Positions 349 through 62,936 of a stretch of 64,000 bases of DNA are shown here, piece after piece (position 1 is the stretch's first letter; each line of letters begins with the position of its first letter). A program made the position numbers and the translations under genes. Under the pieces are notes generated by a model. That model was not told the origin of the DNA. It ran no database searches and was given only the letters and a program-made list of their open reading frames with translations. The stretch comes from Opitutaceae bacterium TAV5 (GTDB lineage Bacteria; Verrucomicrobiota; Verrucomicrobiia; Opitutales; Opitutaceae): contig CP007053.1 in NCBI GenBank assembly GCA_000242935.3, forward strand, positions 3,953,001-4,017,000, read 5' to 3'.

Positions 349-455
349 TTTTAACCACTAATGGACACTAATGGACACTAATGGAAAACAGGTTGATTTG
401 CCGTTGGTTACATTGGTTCGGATTAGTGGCCATTAGTGTCCATTAGTGGTTAAAA
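349..455. repeat. Long hairpin with 10-bp-periodic arms
   Basis: Two 33-bp arms (349-381 and 423-455) are inverted complements with one mismatch, separated by a 41-bp loop. Each arm is itself a short tandem array with a 10-bp unit, TAATGGACAC. It fills most of the hemE-hemY gap. It could act as a transcript-end structure or be a remnant of a mobile repeat. Hairpins of similar build but different unit sequence occur at 24878-24959 and 58157-58291. Confidence 0.85.
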
Positions 456-24688: not shown

Positions 24689-25055
24689 TGGATGATGGAA
24701 AACGGATAGAAAAAAGGAGTGCGCGGGTTTTGCCAGTGTTTTGGGTGGATTTCCTGACCACGGATTACACGGATGAAAGCTTCTTCTTTGAAGTACTTAT
24801 CTTGTCTCTGAAACTATGCTGAAAAATCGTGCGCCAAAGCGTATGATCTCCCTATGGAACAGGATCATTTTGAATAAACCGCTGAAAGACGCTAACGGAC
24901 GCTAAACCGGATTTTTCCGATTGTCCGGTTTTTAGCGACCGTTAGCGACCTTTAGCGGTCTCCCTCTCTTCGGTTGCCGCTCTGCCGCCCCGTGAAAATC
25001 CGTGATTCAAAAAATGGAGTTCAGGCTTCGCGTTACCGGGGACGACGAAGCGAGA
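24689..25055. other. Intergenic region purC-argD
   Basis: No gene is seen in 367 bp. The middle holds a periodic hairpin (separate entry). Around it is a degenerate outer pair, CCACGGATTACACGGATG at about 24758-24776 facing AATCCGTGATTC at about 24997-25009. The remainder, about 24780-24870, is AT-richer than the genes and presumably contains the purC promoter. Confidence 0.5.
24878..24959. repeat. Hairpin with 10-bp-periodic arms
   Basis: The left arm (24878-24910) reads as a degenerate array of GACGCTAACG units. The right arm (24925-24959) is its near complement with AGCGACCGTT units, and the loop is about 14 bp. It lies 3' of argD. The design, tandem units within inverted arms, matches 349-455 and 58157-58291 although the units differ. 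Confidence 0.8.
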
Positions 25056-33532: not shown

Positions 33533-33648
33533 GAAATGCGGATTGCGGAATGCGGAATAACGGGCCAGCAAATGCAACCGGTTATGACGCACGACGCGGC
33601 CTTTTTTCAGCCCGCGCTCCGCATTCCGCAATCCGCATTTCTCCGCCA

Positions 33649-52722: not shown

Positions 52723-54063
52723 GTGCTCACGAACGCCAACCTGCCACCGCCGCCACGCCGTCCACTTTCCCTCGGGGTCATTTTCCTGACGCTCTACATC
52801 GACCTGATCGGGTTCTCGATCATCTTCCCGCTCGCACCGGACCTGCTCGGCCATTACCTGGCGGTCGATGGCAAGGCGGGGCTCCTCGGCTGGCTGCTCG
52901 ACCGGCTCGAAGTCCTCGCCGGCCTGCTCGGCAATACCAACAACCTGACGGTGGTGCTGTTCGGCGGCGTGATCAGTTCGCTGTTCTCGCTCCTGCAATT
53001 TGTTTTCGCGCCGTTCTGGGGCGGCCTTTCCGACCGGCGCGGCCGGCGCGGCGTGCTCCTGCTCACGGTCGCCGGCACCACGGCCAGTTATCTGCTCTGG
53101 GCGCTCAGTGGCTCGTTCTGGATTTTCCTCCTCGCCCGCCTCCTCGGCGGCGCTTTCGGCGGCAACCTCTCCGTGGCGACCGCCGCCGTCGCCGACGTGA
53201 CGACCCGCGCCGAACGGGCCAAGGCCATGGGCATCGTGGGCGCGGCGTTCGGCCTCGGGCTGATCACCGGTCCGCTCGTCGGCGCCGGCGCCGCGCAGAT
53301 CAACCTGCTCGCGCATTTCCCCTCGCTGGCGGCCTGGGGCGTCAACCCGTTTTCGATGCCGGCGCTCGTCGCCTTCCTGCTGAGCACGGCCAACCTGTTC
53401 TGGATTCGCGCGCGTTTTCGCGAGACCCTTTCGGCCGACGCCCGCGGCCGGGCCGCCGAGCCGCGCCTGCGCAATCCCGTGCGCGCCATCCTCGGGCTCG
53501 AAAATCCGTCCGTGCGCGGCGTCAATCTGGTGGCCTTCATCTATGCGCTCGCGTTCGTCGCGATGGAGGCCTCGCTGGTGTTTGTCGGCGCGGAGCGGTT
53601 TGGCTACACGGCCCGGCAAAACGGCATGGTGATGGGTTTTCTCGGCCTTTGCTCGATCATCACGCAGGGCTACATCGTCCGCAAGCTGCTCAACCGCGTG
53701 CCGGAAACGGGCATCCTCGGCAGCGGCCTGCTGCTGACGACGGCCGGGCTGGTCAGCGTCGGTTTTGCCGGGCATCCGGCTTTCCTGTATCTGGGCGCCG
53801 CGTTGCTGGCGACGGGCGCCGGCCTGGTCAACCCGGCCACAACCGGGCTGATCTCGTTGTACTCGGGCGCGGAGGAACAGGGACGCGTGCTCGGCATCTA
53901 CCGCGGGCTCGGATCGCTGGCGCGAGCGGTGACGCCGTTGCTTGCGGGCATCATCTACTACGCGGTGCCCGGCCACAGCCGCACGCTCTACGTGCTGGCG
54001 GCCGCGTTGGCGGTTTTTGCCTGGGCGCTCGGGCGGCGGTTGCCGCAGCCGGAAACCGGATGA
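52723..54063 (+). CDS. MFS transporter, TetA-like drug/sugar exporter
   Basis: A 446-residue major facilitator with 12 predicted helices. Helix 1 reads VIFLTLYIDLIGFSIIFPLA, the TetA/DHA1 opening; the helix 2-3 loop carries motif A, GGLSDRRGRRGVLLL; and RLLGGAFGGNLSVATAAVAD and the GIVGAAFGLGLITGPLVGA motif C (antiporter signature) follow. The start codon is GTG. About 20 extra residues between helices 1 and 2 (YLAVDGKAGLLGWLLDRLEV) are unusual. A drug or small-molecule/H+ antiporter is likely; the substrate is unknown. Confidence 0.88.
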   Translation: MLTNANLPPPPRRPLSLGVIFLTLYIDLIGFSIIFPLAPDLLGHYLAVDGKAGLLGWLLDRLEVLAGLLGNTNNLTVVLFGGVISSLFSLLQFVFAPFWGGLSDRRGRRGVLLLTVAGTTASYLLWALSGSFWIFLLARLLGGAFGGNLSVATAAVADVTTRAERAKAMGIVGAAFGLGLITGPLVGAGAAQINLLAHFPSLAAWGVNPFSMPALVAFLLSTANLFWIRARFRETLSADARGRAAEPRLRNPVRAILGLENPSVRGVNLVAFIYALAFVAMEASLVFVGAERFGYTARQNGMVMGFLGLCSIITQGYIVRKLLNRVPETGILGSGLLLTTAGLVSVGFAGHPAFLYLGAALLATGAGLVNPATTGLISLYSGAEEQGRVLGIYRGLGSLARAVTPLLAGIIYYAVPGHSRTLYVLAAALAVFAWALGRRLPQPETG

Positions 54064-54064
54064 C

Positions 54065-54167
54065 AGAGGCCAGGTGACCAGAGACCAGAGGCCAGAGCCC
54101 GGAGGACAAGGGGTCAGATTTGAAGAGCTTCCGGCCTCCGGCCTCTGTCATCTGGCCTCTGGCCTCC
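54065..54167. repeat. Imperfect inverted repeat with GGCCAGAGG units
   Basis: The left arm (54065-54098) carries repeated CCAGAG/GGCCAG units. The right arm (54140-54167) carries their complements (GGCCTCTG, TCTGGCC). It lies between convergent genes and reaches past the rsmB stop, so it encodes the last residues of RsmB. Confidence 0.7.
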
Positions 54168-55472
54168 GCTCCGGCGGAAACGGAAGACGCCCGCGCCGTC
54201 GTGGCCGTCGATCCAGGGGCGGAGGAGGCGCGTTTCCTCGAGGCGGAATTGTCCGCCGCATTTCTGGAGGAATGTTTCCACGACGGCCTCGTTTTCCTCC
54301 TGCTCCAGGCTGCAGGTGCTGTACACCAGCCGGCCGCCGGGGGTGACGTGGCGCGAGACGGCTTCGAGCAACTCGTATTGCTGCCGCGCGTGCTTCGCGA
54401 AATCGGTCTGCTGCAACCGCCACTTCACGTCCACCCGGTGGCGCATCACGCCGGTGTTGGAGCAGGGCACGTCAACGAGCACGGCGGCGAAGCCGCCCGG
54501 CGCGAGTTTGCCGAGAGCGGCGCCGGCCTGGCCTTGCAGCAGGTTGAGCGGCACGCGCTCCATCTGCACGCCGGCGGGGGCGCGGGAAAGATTTTCTTCC
54601 AGGCGCGTCTGGCGCGGACCCGGCAGATCGACCGAGATGATCCGGCCGCTGCGCATCCGGTCGGCGATCTTGAGGGATTTGCCGCCGGGCGCGGCGCAGG
54701 CATCGAGGATCGTCTCGCCGGGGAGGGGCGCGAGGAGATCCACGGCGTGGCGCGTGGACGGGTCCTGCAAAAACAGGTCGCCCGTCCGGAGCATCGCCTC
54801 GATGCGCGGCCATTCGCTGGTGCGCACTTCGTAGAACTGCGGCCACGAGGTCGGCACGAGCGCGGTCCCGGCATCGGCGGGGAGGTTTTTTTCGGGATGC
54901 CGCCAGCGCGCGTAAACGGGCGCGGGCCGCAGGTTCCACTCGAGCAAGGCGCGCGTGGCCTCGGCGCCGAACCGGGCGAGCCAGCGCTCCACCATCCAGG
55001 CGGGGTGCGAATAAAATTCGCCGAGCGCCGGTGCGGAAGCGAGCCGGCCGGGAGCGGTCGCGGCGGCGAACGTGGCGGCGAGCTTGCGGACCACGGCATT
55101 GACCATCCGCGCCTCGGCCGGGCTGGCGAGCTGACGGGTTTTCTCGACGGCATGATGGACGACTTTGGCCACAAACCCTTCGTCGTCGCTGCGGCTGCCG
55201 TCGATCAGCTCGAAGCCGCTGAGCAGGAACACCGCCTGGACTTCCGGGCGGGGCATGCGTTCGACGAGCGGTGTCACGGCGGCTTCGATACGGCCGAGGT
55301 GGCGGAGCGCGCCGAGCAGGAGATGCTGGCAGCGCGCGCGACCGGCACGGCCGAGCGAGGGCGGGAGTTCGGCGAGCAGGAGATCGATGCGCGCGTTTTC
55401 ATCGAGCCAGCGGGTGAGGAGGCGGGCGGCGGTCAGCCAGGAATCGGTGCGGGTAACAGGAGCAGTTTCCAT
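54114..55472 (-). CDS. rsmB: 16S rRNA (cytosine-C5) methyltransferase RsmB
   Basis: A 452-residue enzyme: an N-terminal NusB-like helical domain (residues 10-145, e.g. RCQHLLLGALRHLGRIEAAV), then the SAM domain with DACAAPGGKSLKIADRM, DVPCSNTGVMRHRVDVKWRL (motif IV Cys) and YSTCSLEQEENE (motif VI Cys). The start METAPVTRTD was chosen because the longer frame is repeat-derived. The final residues (about SGGQRPDDRGRRPEALQI) are encoded by an intergenic repeat, so the original stop was probably further upstream. Confidence 0.92.
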   Translation of the reverse strand: METAPVTRTDSWLTAARLLTRWLDENARIDLLLAELPPSLGRAGRARCQHLLLGALRHLGRIEAAVTPLVERMPRPEVQAVFLLSGFELIDGSRSDDEGFVAKVVHHAVEKTRQLASPAEARMVNAVVRKLAATFAAATAPGRLASAPALGEFYSHPAWMVERWLARFGAEATRALLEWNLRPAPVYARWRHPEKNLPADAGTALVPTSWPQFYEVRTSEWPRIEAMLRTGDLFLQDPSTRHAVDLLAPLPGETILDACAAPGGKSLKIADRMRSGRIISVDLPGPRQTRLEENLSRAPAGVQMERVPLNLLQGQAGAALGKLAPGGFAAVLVDVPCSNTGVMRHRVDVKWRLQQTDFAKHARQQYELLEAVSRHVTPGGRLVYSTCSLEQEENEAVVETFLQKCGGQFRLEETRLLRPWIDGHDGAGVFRFRRSGGQRPDDRGRRPEALQI

Positions 55473-55587: not shown

Positions 55588-57678
55588 CTACCTTGCCGGG
55601 CTTTCGACGCTTGCGCCCTGCAGGTGGCGCCAGCGGGCGACCACGCGGCGGAAGATGCTCTCCGGATCCAGGCCGTGCCCGGCGCGCAGGGTGGCGACAT
55701 CGTTGCCGTGGCCGATGAAACAGTCGGGCCAGCCGATGCGTTCCACGGCAGCGACGGCTGACGCCGCCGGTTTGGAGTTTGGAGTTTCGGGTTCAGCGTT
55801 GTCGGCGAAGGAGCGGCGCTCGCCTGAACCCGAAACCCTGAACCCTGAACCCTGAACTGCCGCCGCGTCAGCGGCGGCGAGCGTCTCCAGCACCGCGCTG
55901 CCGAAGCCGCCGGCGAGGACGTGGTCCTCCATCGTCACGAGGAGCGGCACGCTCGCGGCGTGTTCGAGCAGCAGGTCGCGATCGAGCGGCTTGACGAAGC
56001 GCGCGTTGACCACGCCGGCGGAGATGCCTTCTTCGGCGGCGAGCCGGTCGGCGAGTTCCTGCGCGTCGGCCACCATGTTGCCGAGCGCCCAGATCATGAT
56101 GTCGTCGCCGTCGCGCACCCCTTCGGCCTTGCCGACGGGGAGGGCGGCGGGCGTTTCCTTGATCGCCACGCCGGCGGCAGCGCCGCGCGGATAACGGATG
56201 AAGCCGGGGCCTTCCAGATGAAGGCTGGTGTGGAGCATGTCCACGAGTTCATCCTCGTCCTTCGGCTGCATGACGACGGCGTTGGGCACGCAGCGCAGCC
56301 AGGCGATGTCGAAGAGGCCGTGATGCGTGGGGCCGTCGTTGGGCGAGAGGCCGGCGCGATCCATGCAGAAGGTCACCGGCAGGTTTTGCAGCGCGATGTC
56401 GTGGATGATCGGGTCGTAGCCGCGTTGCAGGAAGGTGGAGTAGATCGCGACGACGGGACGGATGCCTTTGGTGGCGAGGCCGCCGGCAAAGATCACGGCG
56501 TGTTCCTCGGCGATGCCGACATCGAAAAACTGCTGCGGCAGCTCCGATGCGAGGAGCGAGAGGCCGGTGCCGCTCGGCATCGCGCCGGTGATGCCGACGA
56601 TGCGGCGATCCTCGCGTGCGAAACGGACGAGGGTGCGGCCAAAGACTTCCTGCCACGCGGGGGGGGGAGGAGGGAGGGAGGGAGCCTCCGGGCAGCGGGC
56701 GGGTTTGCGGCTCTCGCCGGTGACGGGATCGTAGGGGCTGGCGCCGTGGAATTTTTCGGGCGAGTTGATCGCCGCCGCCAGCCCGCGGCCTTTTTTGGTG
56801 AGCACGTGCACGAGCACGGGCCCGTCGCAGTTTTTGGCGAATTCGAGGTTTTTGACGAGTTCGTCGAGATTGTGCCCGTCGATCGGGCCGAGGTAGCGGA
56901 GGCCGAATTTCTCAAAAAGGCTCGACTCGACAAAAAAGTCTTTCGTCTCGCGTTTCCACTTCATCCAGAGGCGGTGCATGTCGGGGCCGCCGGGCAGGCT
57001 GGTGAAGAATTTTTCCAGATCCCCGTGAATCTTGTTGTAGGTGGGGTGGGTGCTGAGGCGGTTGAGGTAGCGGGCCATCGCGCCGACGTTGCGGGCGATG
57101 GACCATTCGTTGTCGTTGAGGATGACGACGAGGCGCCGGGTGGAGCTGACGACGTTGTTGAGCGCCTCGAGGGTGACGCCGCAGGTGAAGGCGGCGTCGC
57201 CGCAGAGGGCGACGACGTGCTCGCCGGTGCCGCGCAGGTCGCGGGCGGTGGCCATGCCGAGAGCGGCGCTCAGGGCGGTGCCGGCGTGGCCCGCGCCGAA
57301 GGCGTCATGTTCGCTCTCGTGCCGGGCGAGGAAACCGCTGGCGCCGCCGGTCTGGCGGAGGTTGCGGAAAAACTCGCCTCCGCGTCCGGTGAGCAGCTTG
57401 TGGACGTAGCCCTGGTGGGCGACGTCGAAGACGAACTGGTCGCGCGGGGTGTCGAACACGCGATGCAGGGCGACGGTGAGCTCGACGACGCCGAGATTGG
57501 GCCCGACGTGGCCGCCGTTGCGTGAGGTCACGGCGATGATCTCGTCGCGGATTTCCTGCGCCAGTTGCGGGAGCTGGCCGGGCGCGAGCGCCTTGACATC
57601 GGCCGGCGAACGGATGCCGGGGAGAAGGGCGGGAGCGGGAGAATCGGATGTGGCCGGGTTTCCGGCGGGAGCTTGCAT
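55588..57678 (-). CDS. dxs: 1-deoxy-D-xylulose-5-phosphate synthase
   Basis: A 696-residue thiamine-diphosphate enzyme starting the MEP isoprenoid pathway. His in FDVAHQGYVHKLLTGR (His 88), TPP-motif CGDAAFTCGVTLEALNN (GDAA where GDGA is usual), LNDNEWSIARNVGAM, and MDRAGLSPNDGPTHHGLFD are all present. Residues about 602-641 are encoded by a 116-bp element with inverted ends, between the conserved strand VLETLAA and ERIGWPDCFI of the C-terminal domain. A Pro-rich loop near 330 is encoded by a G-rich tract. The gene lies 99 bp after xseB. Confidence 0.95.
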   Translation of the reverse strand: MQAPAGNPATSDSPAPALLPGIRSPADVKALAPGQLPQLAQEIRDEIIAVTSRNGGHVGPNLGVVELTVALHRVFDTPRDQFVFDVAHQGYVHKLLTGRGGEFFRNLRQTGGASGFLARHESEHDAFGAGHAGTALSAALGMATARDLRGTGEHVVALCGDAAFTCGVTLEALNNVVSSTRRLVVILNDNEWSIARNVGAMARYLNRLSTHPTYNKIHGDLEKFFTSLPGGPDMHRLWMKWKRETKDFFVESSLFEKFGLRYLGPIDGHNLDELVKNLEFAKNCDGPVLVHVLTKKGRGLAAAINSPEKFHGASPYDPVTGESRKPARCPEAPSLPPPPPAWQEVFGRTLVRFAREDRRIVGITGAMPSGTGLSLLASELPQQFFDVGIAEEHAVIFAGGLATKGIRPVVAIYSTFLQRGYDPIIHDIALQNLPVTFCMDRAGLSPNDGPTHHGLFDIAWLRCVPNAVVMQPKDEDELVDMLHTSLHLEGPGFIRYPRGAAAGVAIKETPAALPVGKAEGVRDGDDIMIWALGNMVADAQELADRLAAEEGISAGVVNARFVKPLDRDLLLEHAASVPLLVTMEDHVLAGGFGSAVLETLAAADAAAVQGSGFRVSGSGERRSFADNAEPETPNSKPAASAVAAVERIGWPDCFIGHGNDVATLRAGHGLDPESIFRRVVARWRHLQGASVESPAR
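55757..55872. repeat. 116-bp element with inverted ends inside dxs
   Basis: Ends GCTGACGCCGCCGG (55757-55770) and GCCGCCGCGTCAGC (55859-55872) are near-perfect inverted complements; inside are repeats of TTTGGAGTTT and CCTGAACCC-type units. On the coding strand it reads AVQGSGFRV ... [12 protein letters not shown]. The same length and nearly the same sequence occur at 61911-62026 in another gene. Confidence 0.88.
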
Positions 57679-58026: not shown

Positions 58027-58156
58027 AAGGGCGGAAGTTGGCGGGCGGGGGAGCGGTTTTCAACCTGTCTTTGCCGGAACGCAAGGAACTCGGGGCGCGT
58101 CGGGCCGGGAATGCTGCGGCCTCCTCTTGTGGGAACCTCTAAAAAAACAGATTTTC

Positions 58157-58291
58157 AACCACAGAGACACAAAGACACAGAGTTTCAGAAAAAGAGAATA
58201 AGCAACGAAATCTGTTTTATGCCTGCAAGATACGAAAAAAATAAAAAATCTCCCTTTGTGTATTTCTCTGTGTCTTTGTGTCTCTGTGGTT
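58157..58291. repeat. Hairpin with 9-bp-periodic arms
   Basis: The arms 58157-58182 and 58266-58291 are perfect 26-bp inverted complements around an 83-bp AT-rich loop. Each arm has a 9-bp period (AGACACA recurring). It lies between xseB and the MBL gene. Confidence 0.9.
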
Positions 58292-58308
58292 AATTTTCAG
58301 ACTCCCCT

Positions 58309-61108: not shown

Positions 61109-61128
61109 CGCCGGCCGGCGTCAGGGGA

Positions 61129-61267
61129 AGTTTGCAGTTGGAAATTTGCAGTTTGTCATTGGCAGTTTGCAACGGGCAAGGGACTGCTGCTCCCGGCGGT
61201 AGTCGATGCACCGGAACATCAGCCGCCACCACCCATTACCAATTACCAACTGCCAATTACCAACTCC
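61129..61267. repeat. Intergenic inverted repeat with GCAGTTTG/CCAATTAC units
   Basis: The left arm (61129-61171) has repeated TTTGCAGTT/GGCAGTTTG words; the right arm (61231-61267) has their approximate complements (AATTACCAACTGCC). It fills the rnhB-kinase gap. A half copy of the left arm is at about 37323-37360. Confidence 0.65.
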
Positions 61268-61304
61268 CGTCCACAGCTTCCCGTCACCGCAAGAGACTGA
61301 ACCC

Positions 61305-62600
61305 ATGTCCGCCGCCAAAAAACACTCCCCCCTCGACCGCGTTCTCGGGCAGATCAACAAGCTCGATACCGCCAGCCTCGCGACCCTCGCGCAGCGGCTG
61401 GCCCGCGAACGCGAGCTGTTCGAGAGCATCTTCAACATCCTCCAGGAAGGCGTTCTCGTCATCCATGCCGATGGTCATATCGAGTACGCCAATGCCGCCG
61501 CCCACCGCCTCGTCGGCGTCTCCGGCAACGCCTTGCAGGGTGATCTCCTCTGGCGCTTCGTCCCCGGCCTGCGTCCTTCGCTCGAACCCTCGCTCGACGG
61601 CACCGCCCCGGTCGTCACCCGCGAATTCGAGCTGACCTATCCCGAATCCCGCACGGTGCGCCTCTATATGGTGCCCTTTCACCCCGACGGTGTCGATTCC
61701 GGGCAGGACCCGGCGCCCCGCTTCGCCGTCATCCTTTCCGACATCACCCGCGACAAGCAGACCACCGAAGAACGCATCGAGAGCGAACGGACCTCCTCGA
61801 TCCTGCTCCTCGCCGCCAGCGTGGCCCACGAACTCGGCAACCCGCTCAATTCGCTCACGATCCACCTCCAGCTCATCGAGCGAAAACTCCGGAAGGCCGC
61901 CGCCACCGCCGCTGACACGGCGGCTGTTCAGGGTTCAGGGTTTCGGGTTCAGAGTTCACGCAAACGTCGCGCCTCTGCCGACAACTCCAAACCCGAAACA
62001 CCAAACTCCAAACCGGCGGCGTCAGCCGCCGCCGCCGGCGTCGCCGAATCGATCCGCATCTGTCAGGAAGAAGTCGCCCGGCTCGACGGCATCATCACCC
62101 ACTTCCTCGAAGCCATCCGCCCGCGCCCGCCCGATCTCGCCGAGACGGACCTGATGGAAGTCCTCGGCGAAGTCCTCCACTTCCAGCAGCGCGAACTCGA
62201 GGACCGCGACATCGTCATCGACGCCGAAATGGCTCCCGGCGTCCCCTGCGTGATGGCCGACCGCGACCAGCTCAAGCAGGTATTTTTCAACGTCATCAAA
62301 AACGCCGTGCAGGCCATGAAGCCCGGCGGCCGCCTGCGCATCAAGTCGCGCGCCGACGACGACTACGTCTATCTGCTCTTTGGCGACAGCGGCAGCGGTA
62401 TCCGCCAGAAAGACCTCGCGCAGCTCTTCCAGCCCTACCACACGACCAAGGCCGACGGCACCGGCCTCGGTCTCATGATCGCGCAGCGCATCATGCGCGA
62501 GCATGGCGGCCAGATCGGCATCGAAAGCCGCGAGCACGTCGGCACCGTCGTCACCCTGCAATTCCCCCGGAAGGAACGCCGCGTCCGCCTGCTGGAATGA
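61305..62600 (+). CDS. Sensor histidine kinase, PAS-HisKA-HATPase
   Basis: A 431-residue cytoplasmic kinase without membrane segments. A PAS domain (about 40-135, [20 protein letters not shown]) is followed by the phosphoacceptor helix [18 protein letters not shown] (His about 175) and an HATPase domain (N box [15 protein letters not shown]1 SGSGIR, G2 [10 protein letters not shown]). Between the two dimerisation helices, about residues 203-241 are encoded by a 116-bp mobile-like element also found in dxs. No response regulator gene is adjacent. NtrB-like, but the signal is unknown. Confidence 0.92.
61911..62026. repeat. 116-bp element with inverted ends inside the histidine kinase
   Basis: Begins GCTGACACGGCGGC and ends CCGGCGGCGTCAGC; the core reads on the coding strand AVQGSGFRV ... 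[17 protein letters not shown]. It has the same length, frame and nearly the same protein sequence as the copy in dxs. Confidence 0.88.
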
Positions 62601-62936
62601 CGGACGGATCGTCGTGGCGCGGGCGTCTCGCCCGCTTCTGCGGGAGGTGCCTCCCGGGGCGGCGCTCCGCGCCGTCTGCGGGCGGGACGCCCGCGCCACT
62701 TCCCAGGCATGCGTAACATCAGATCTATAATTCATCGTCCGTCATTCGTAATTTGTCGGTTTTTTATGCTTGTTTTTCGACTTGCCCGAAGCACGCTGCG
62801 CGCCGAATTCAACCTGCTTTTCACCCTTTGATCCGCGTCTTTCCCTCAAATTTGAAGAAACCTGCTTTCGTGATTTGACTCGCGTCGCGCGAGGCATTTT
62901 GGCTCCCCCGGGAACCACGCTAAAAAAACACAATTT
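62601..62936. other. Intergenic region before the acidic protein
   Basis: 336 bp with no gene. It has a palindromic repeat at 62614-62699 (separate entry), then an AT-richer stretch at 62720-62775 and the leader of the next gene (62780-62936). Confidence 0.5.
62614..62699. repeat. 86-bp palindromic repeat with GTGGCGCGGGCGTC ends
   Basis: The first 14 bases GTGGCGCGGGCGTC are the exact complement of the last 14, and inner palindromes GGGAGGTGCCTCCC and GGCGCTCCGCGCC fill the middle. The same terminal sequence bounds the repeat inside the alpha-mannosidase. Confidence 0.85.

Follow-up and report, generated by a model that had tools for sequence, protein, structure and literature searches.

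Hairpins with internally periodic arms were found in the window, the 64,000-nt stretch of DNA analysed here, at every position for which an initial annotation, made from the letters alone, had reported one. Three additional hairpins of the same kind were located. The features are listed below; no strand is assigned to any of them.

349-455: solo hairpin, 10-bp unit CACTAATGGA; arms 349-382/422-455 (34 nt, 97%)
349..455: foot of this hairpin, TTTTAACCAC/GTGGTTAAAA
456..474: outer terminal repeat, right-hand remnant (ATCTGTTTCAGAACCTCCC), similar around other hairpins
24878-24959: solo hairpin, 10-bp unit CGCTAACGGA; arms 24878-24906/24931-24959 (29 nt, 86%)
33533-33641: additional heptamer hairpin, unit AATGCGG; arms 24/24
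54062-54171: looser heptamer hairpin, units CAGAGGC/CAGAGAC; inverted repeat at 54076-54171
55769-55857: additional heptamer hairpin, units GGTTTGG/GGTTCAG; within ORF 55588-57678 (minus strand)
58131..58307: longer element enclosing the next hairpin, outer terminal repeat GGGAACCTCTAAAA...TTTTCAGACTCCCC
58157-58291: solo hairpin, units CACAAAGA/CACAGAGA, foot AACCAC
61126-61268: looser heptamer hairpin, units AGTTTGC/AGTTGGn; inverted repeat at 61150-61265
61917-62022: additional heptamer hairpin, in-frame insertion in a kinase gene (ORF 61206-62600)

The hairpins at 349, 24878 and 58157 had been described as sharing architecture but not sequence. Their units do differ, but each one is a member of a dispersed family, and foot and unit type are partly common: units of the CRC-x-R-A type occur in all three, and the foot AACCAC occurs at both 349 and 58157, with ACCGC at 24878. 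The arms of the 58157 hairpin (58157-58197/58251-58291) span 41 nt at 83%, the outer 26 nt at 100%. Compared with dinucleotide shuffles, the predicted RNA folds of these hairpins were strong (z = -9.9 at 349, -8.2 at 24878, and -10.0 at 58157), and those of the looser hairpins reached z = -4.5 (54062-54171) and -2.4 (61126-61268). The five hairpins reported initially are intergenic, as had been stated; the additional one at 61917-62022 interrupts a coding sequence.

An 864 kb stretch of the chromosome including the window was scanned for inverted repeats with both arms internally periodic (z≥3.5). This revealed 67 pairs with a loop below 250 nt, compared to 0, 0, and 0 in three shuffled sequences, and 16 further pairs at wider spacing (shuffles 0–2), which bears out the view that the build is non-random and reflects a process. 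At a slightly looser cut, 55 non-overlapping periodic hairpins were obtained, most of which group into unit families: AACCAC-TAATGGACAC, AACCGC-TAAAGGACGC, AACCACAGAGACAC, TTGAACAGAAGG-AACGAAG, CCACAAAAAACAC, and CCCACGAAACACACG, as well as heptamer families including AGTTTGG, CAGAGGC, GGTTCAG, and AATGCGG. The family of the 54062-54171 hairpin recurs at genome positions 3846490, 4330090, and 4330750. Predicted coding sequence was overlapped by 6% of 47 short-loop hairpins versus 77% of random 105-mers. Arrays of the AGTTTGG type occupy three successive spacers of an ABC-transporter gene cluster (genome C1 4371161-4374381), and concentric hairpins, with CACGAAA-unit arms inside CACGGAT-unit arms, were seen twice in identical layout (genome C1 3799080 and 4332422). 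Intergenic, palindromic, high-copy sequences recall the REP/RAYT type of palindrome. This identity is very improbable here, given that GTAG/GGAG/CGTC foot tags were present in 4 of the 47 hairpins where 7 were expected, and that the arms enclose other genes.

Repeats of such a kind flank GxxExxY genes, a lead that prompted a test of these loci. Every one of the seven distinct GxxExxY loci in the same genome is flanked by inverted repeats, mostly built of 8–10 bp units. The 349-455 arms match those of two of these cassettes (L002 and L008), the latter holding a broken GxxExxY gene between perfect 31-nt arms, and the 58157 arm is identical to one arm of a third (L001) over 26/26 bases. The cassette gene is a full member of TIGR04256, the NCBIfam entry named GxxExxY, and of PF13366 (PDDEXK_3). 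At another locus (L003, genome C1 5003433-5004191), two GxxExxY domains are fused in one ORF, with unusual arms and several CACCACAGAGGAGGGGAGTGGGCGCAGAG repeats around.

Across the phylum, an inverted repeat of any kind was present at 21 of 29 GxxExxY loci and a strictly periodic spanning repeat at 12 of 29; many of the loci lacking strict periodicity visibly consist of CAC-nnAG units at mixed spacing. A wider sample, assigned by record title to Verrucomicrobiota, Planctomycetota, Desulfobacterota, Calditrichota, Omnitrophota, Acidobacteriota, and others, gave a repeat at 63 of 73 loci, periodic in 58 (shuffles 2/73). Since 20 of these loci represent one orthologous site, GxxExxY genes were also counted by site, and 36 of 40 independent testable sites carried a repeat. 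The 20 loci (L159-L213, one flank cluster) hold the cassette at a single site across Opitutaceae, with arms that vary by species. A plasmid survey added GxxExxY genes of Sphingomonas and Bernardetia with CGCGA- and CACAGAG-type arms, the Sphingomonas copy being situated between fabD and fabG. A fixed target duplication was sought around GxxExxY cassettes and was absent.

A parallel arrangement was found for genes of the S23/four-helix-bundle family (TIGR02436 in NCBIfam). Both four-helix-bundle (PF05635) genes of the same genome lie between arms of 7-bp units; the hairpin at 61126-61268 is of the same type as the arms of one such cassette (L011), and the hairpin at 55769-55857 resembles in type the arms of cassette L010. 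Periodic spanning repeats enclosed 18 of 30 S23 loci in the phylum, and repeats were present at 18 of 26 S23 genes from 21 genomes of other groups (Fisher 4e-10 versus control). On cyanobacterial plasmids, 5 of 6 S23 genes had 7-bp arms. Two four-helix-bundle cassettes (L420 and L419) occupy the cas6/cas4 interval of a Pseudanabaena plasmid and the nrdB/nrdA interval of a Nostoc plasmid, respectively. No rRNA was detected near S23 at the 20 loci scanned.

Control loci encoding ParE toxins showed a periodic spanning repeat in 0 of 30 cases, and shuffled flanks in the phylum comparison yielded none. DUF559, intended as a second control, was dropped because its matches were few and partial. The association of gene and arms across phyla extends to their details. 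The unit period tracks the gene, being 7 with S23 and 8–10 with GxxExxY (p about 1e-20), and elements with similar proteins tend to have similar arms (Mantel rho 0.63, reached in 0 of 500 permutations). Left and right arms are more alike within elements (0.85) than between them (0.39).

Comparison of orthologous sites revealed presence and absence of these elements. The kinase insertion at 61917-62022 is absent from 19 of 19 homologues, one of them from the same genus. In another genus, one orthologous intergenic site is empty in several species, which have just a hairpin-containing spacer of about 78 bp. Elsewhere the site is occupied: an S23 element with AGTTAAT arms is present in two species, an S23 element of a different kind, with ATACTAA arms, in two more, a solo hairpin of the GxxExxY type in one, and a solo heptamer hairpin in one. 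Genomes G063 and G111 contain different elements there between flanks 95–97% identical. No further empty sites were found in 120 kb compared across three close genomes. Some cassette copies are vertically inherited, as the 20 orthologous Opitutaceae loci keep the cassette in place.

Solo hairpins are short and non-coding and carry terminal inverted repeats, as MITEs do. Several of them match gene-bearing elements. The GCCCACGAAACACACGAAAAGACACGAAA hairpins of the genome under study are identical (29/29) to the arm of a GxxExxY cassette of another species, and genome G051 contains three copies of one element, one at full length and two internally deleted. For the 24878 family, 39 exact arm matches were counted in its own genome (reversed control pattern 0), five in a congener, four in a single other genus, and none across 38 more genomes; a gene-bearing copy of this family was not found. 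The independent origin of each hairpin favoured in the initial annotation thus gives way to membership in dispersed families, and the finding it had named as a refutation, copies of a few conserved families, holds in part.

Copies of the TTGAACAGAAGG hairpin have a longer outer repeat in common, GGGAACTTCTGAAAA. Exact 4-bp duplications (TTAA, TGAT, TCAT, TTCA, TGAA, TTTT, ATAA, and TGAA) flank 8 of about 16 elements with this GGGAAC-frame outer repeat, compared to about 0.06 expected at equal base use. The three window hairpins (349, 24878, and 58157) and the 58131..58307 element showed no clear target duplication. The same outer repeat also encloses other inner arms, including those of window 58131-58307 and, partly, 349-474; the arms are therefore layered, one outer repeat surrounding hairpins with differing inner arms. 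Empty sites, close species with differing elements at the same site, 4-bp duplications in one family of solo hairpins, and internal deletions show that this is mobile DNA.

The layered arms bear on whether the hairpins might be ordinary MITEs. In that case, all movement would be due to a conventional IS transposase using the outer repeats, the GxxExxY and S23 genes would be passengers, and the periodic arms would be incidental. An outer repeat with 4-bp duplications around differing inner arms is what such a mechanism would leave behind, and the explanation retains a footing because clear target duplications are confined to the outer repeat. However, this repeat was unseen at most gene-bearing cassettes, where arms and gene type are nevertheless linked across phyla, and the 864 kb contained no evident gene-length GGGAACTTCTGAAAA pair accompanied by a probable IS. 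We consider the transposase explanation unlikely, though the strongest of the alternatives to a cassette origin. The window hairpins are, with high probability, solo, MITE-like members of widespread small mobile cassettes in which tandem-unit arms enclose one of two unrelated genes, GxxExxY or S23.

A further explanation is selection for structured RNAs (mRNA stabilizers, terminators, or RNase III sites), an option that the initial annotation had offered in general form. The strong predicted folds, arms that remain complementary as units change, a position between tandem genes, and the known RNase III cleavage of the stems of rRNA intervening sequences (IVS) (PMC4990558) would agree with this. 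Paired arm positions vary on both sides across elements, but the percentage paired is biased, as the elements were picked for having an inverted repeat. G-U and A-C mismatches numbered 35 versus 58, 30 versus 37, and 30 versus 26, and the lack of a G-U excess argues against selection on folded RNA. Neither the hairpins nor the scanned loci gave an Rfam match at the gathering score, and hairpin presence differs among close species. RNA selection is accordingly an improbable explanation, and DNA-level copying or conversion fits the arm likeness better than selection for RNA pairing.

Replication slippage combined with fold-back (template-switch) synthesis could, in principle, have produced each hairpin separately. 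High arm identity within elements would be expected, as would the difference between G063 and G207, whose heptamer number differs in both arms at the orthologous site described above. Dispersed hairpin copies with identical arms and loop were found, however, most unit families consist of copies, and neither the cassette genes nor the 4-bp duplications follow from such a process. A separate origin is hence about as improbable as RNA selection, although slippage and fold-back may be a source of arm diversification. As the process that makes the arrays, movement of the cassettes and of their derivatives resembling MITEs has the best support, and fold-back synthesis or conversion may keep the arms alike while the units vary.

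The GxxExxY protein has the appearance of a nuclease. Among 112 proteins, there is almost no variation at the acidic residues, the lysine, the Q, or the N of a PD-(D/E)XK site, with E23, D63, E/D73, K75, and Q87 kept in 111–112. The AlphaFold model (pLDDT 92) has SSO0001 as its nearest fold (Z 9.8, rmsd 3.6, 96 residues); lower in the fold list, restriction enzymes, Hjc, and RecB-type nucleases are tied. By active site and modelled fold, GxxExxY is a putative PD-(D/E)XK nuclease. A specific assignment as Holliday-junction resolvase was rejected, as the Hjc rows are tied with many other folds and not singled out, and so was a relationship to phage endonuclease I, for which the sequence match was not significant. 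For S23, a solved structural relative is available (2gsc). No nuclease motif is known in S23, so that a mechanism common to the two classes is not apparent.

We infer that the product of the enclosed gene mobilizes its own element. This protein would bind the repeat units, probably when they are extruded as a cruciform or present as a single-stranded hairpin, and in the GxxExxY class it would cut at the arms and so start movement. Solo hairpins would be moved in trans, and the arms would stay alike if one arm served as the source of new copies or as the model to which they were converted. Tentatively, and with somewhat more doubt than confidence, we propose a new kind of transposon: a cassette of about 450 bp whose sole gene encodes a minimal predicted PD-(D/E)XK nuclease reading iterated units, and which moves itself along with hundreds of solo hairpins. 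The S23 four-helix-bundle cassettes would form a parallel class, and rRNA IVS, cyanobacterial STRRs, and the Xanthomonas heptamers would have arisen by the same process.

Among the closest known systems is the 23S rRNA IVS with an S23p ORF, found in Coxiella and Leptospira, which likewise has an S23 gene between terminal inverted repeats that form a long stem. In Coxiella, tandem heptamers (GACAGAT) adjoin the ORF, and the IVS has been termed a selfish element (PMC4990558). As the S23 cassettes also hold an S23 ORF inside terminal inverted repeats, this class is an extension of the known rRNA intervening sequences. In contrast to these, the elements described here lie outside rRNA, in intergenic and even coding DNA, use many heptamers, and are mostly solo. 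STRR heptanucleotide repeats of filamentous cyanobacteria (Calothrix, Nostoc) are 7-bp arrays of unexplained origin, and the Nostoc plasmid S23 cassettes of this study carry 7-bp arms. GGGAATC heptamers in Xanthomonas and Nostoc are intergenic, often in inverted pairs, with 70–75 cases per genome, and were studied as quadruplex-forming sequences in a paper that also mentions the Calothrix heptanucleotides (PMC4692102). The accessible part of that paper states no link to S23 genes, whereas the same unit flanks the S23 gene of locus L081 here. BrickBuilt, a minisatellite-bearing MITE of Porphyromonas gingivalis, similarly has tandem repeats inside an intergenic MITE. It differs in its 23-bp unit, in having the repeats between small inverted ends, and in its restriction to one species; a gene-bearing partner is unmentioned in the abstract (PMC4596501).

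In the literature searched, from which preprints and most subscription journals were excluded, there were neither papers on GxxExxY function or flanking repeats nor accounts of S23 cassettes with inverted repeats. A common origin is suggested for repeats that earlier work treated one by one and without explanation (23S rRNA IVS, STRR, and GGGAATC heptamers), and two abundant protein families of no known function, GxxExxY and S23, gain a setting. With named cassettes at hand, arm binding, cutting, and movement become open to test.

Other inverted sequences were noted in the same chromosome. A family of period 6/12, CTCGTTCTC/GAGAACGAG, is located at genome C1 4172855, 4393372, and 4127674, and a recurrent family of non-periodic palindromes, GTGGCGCGGGCGTCTCGCCCGC, is represented at window 62614-62699 and at genome 4102458-4102597.
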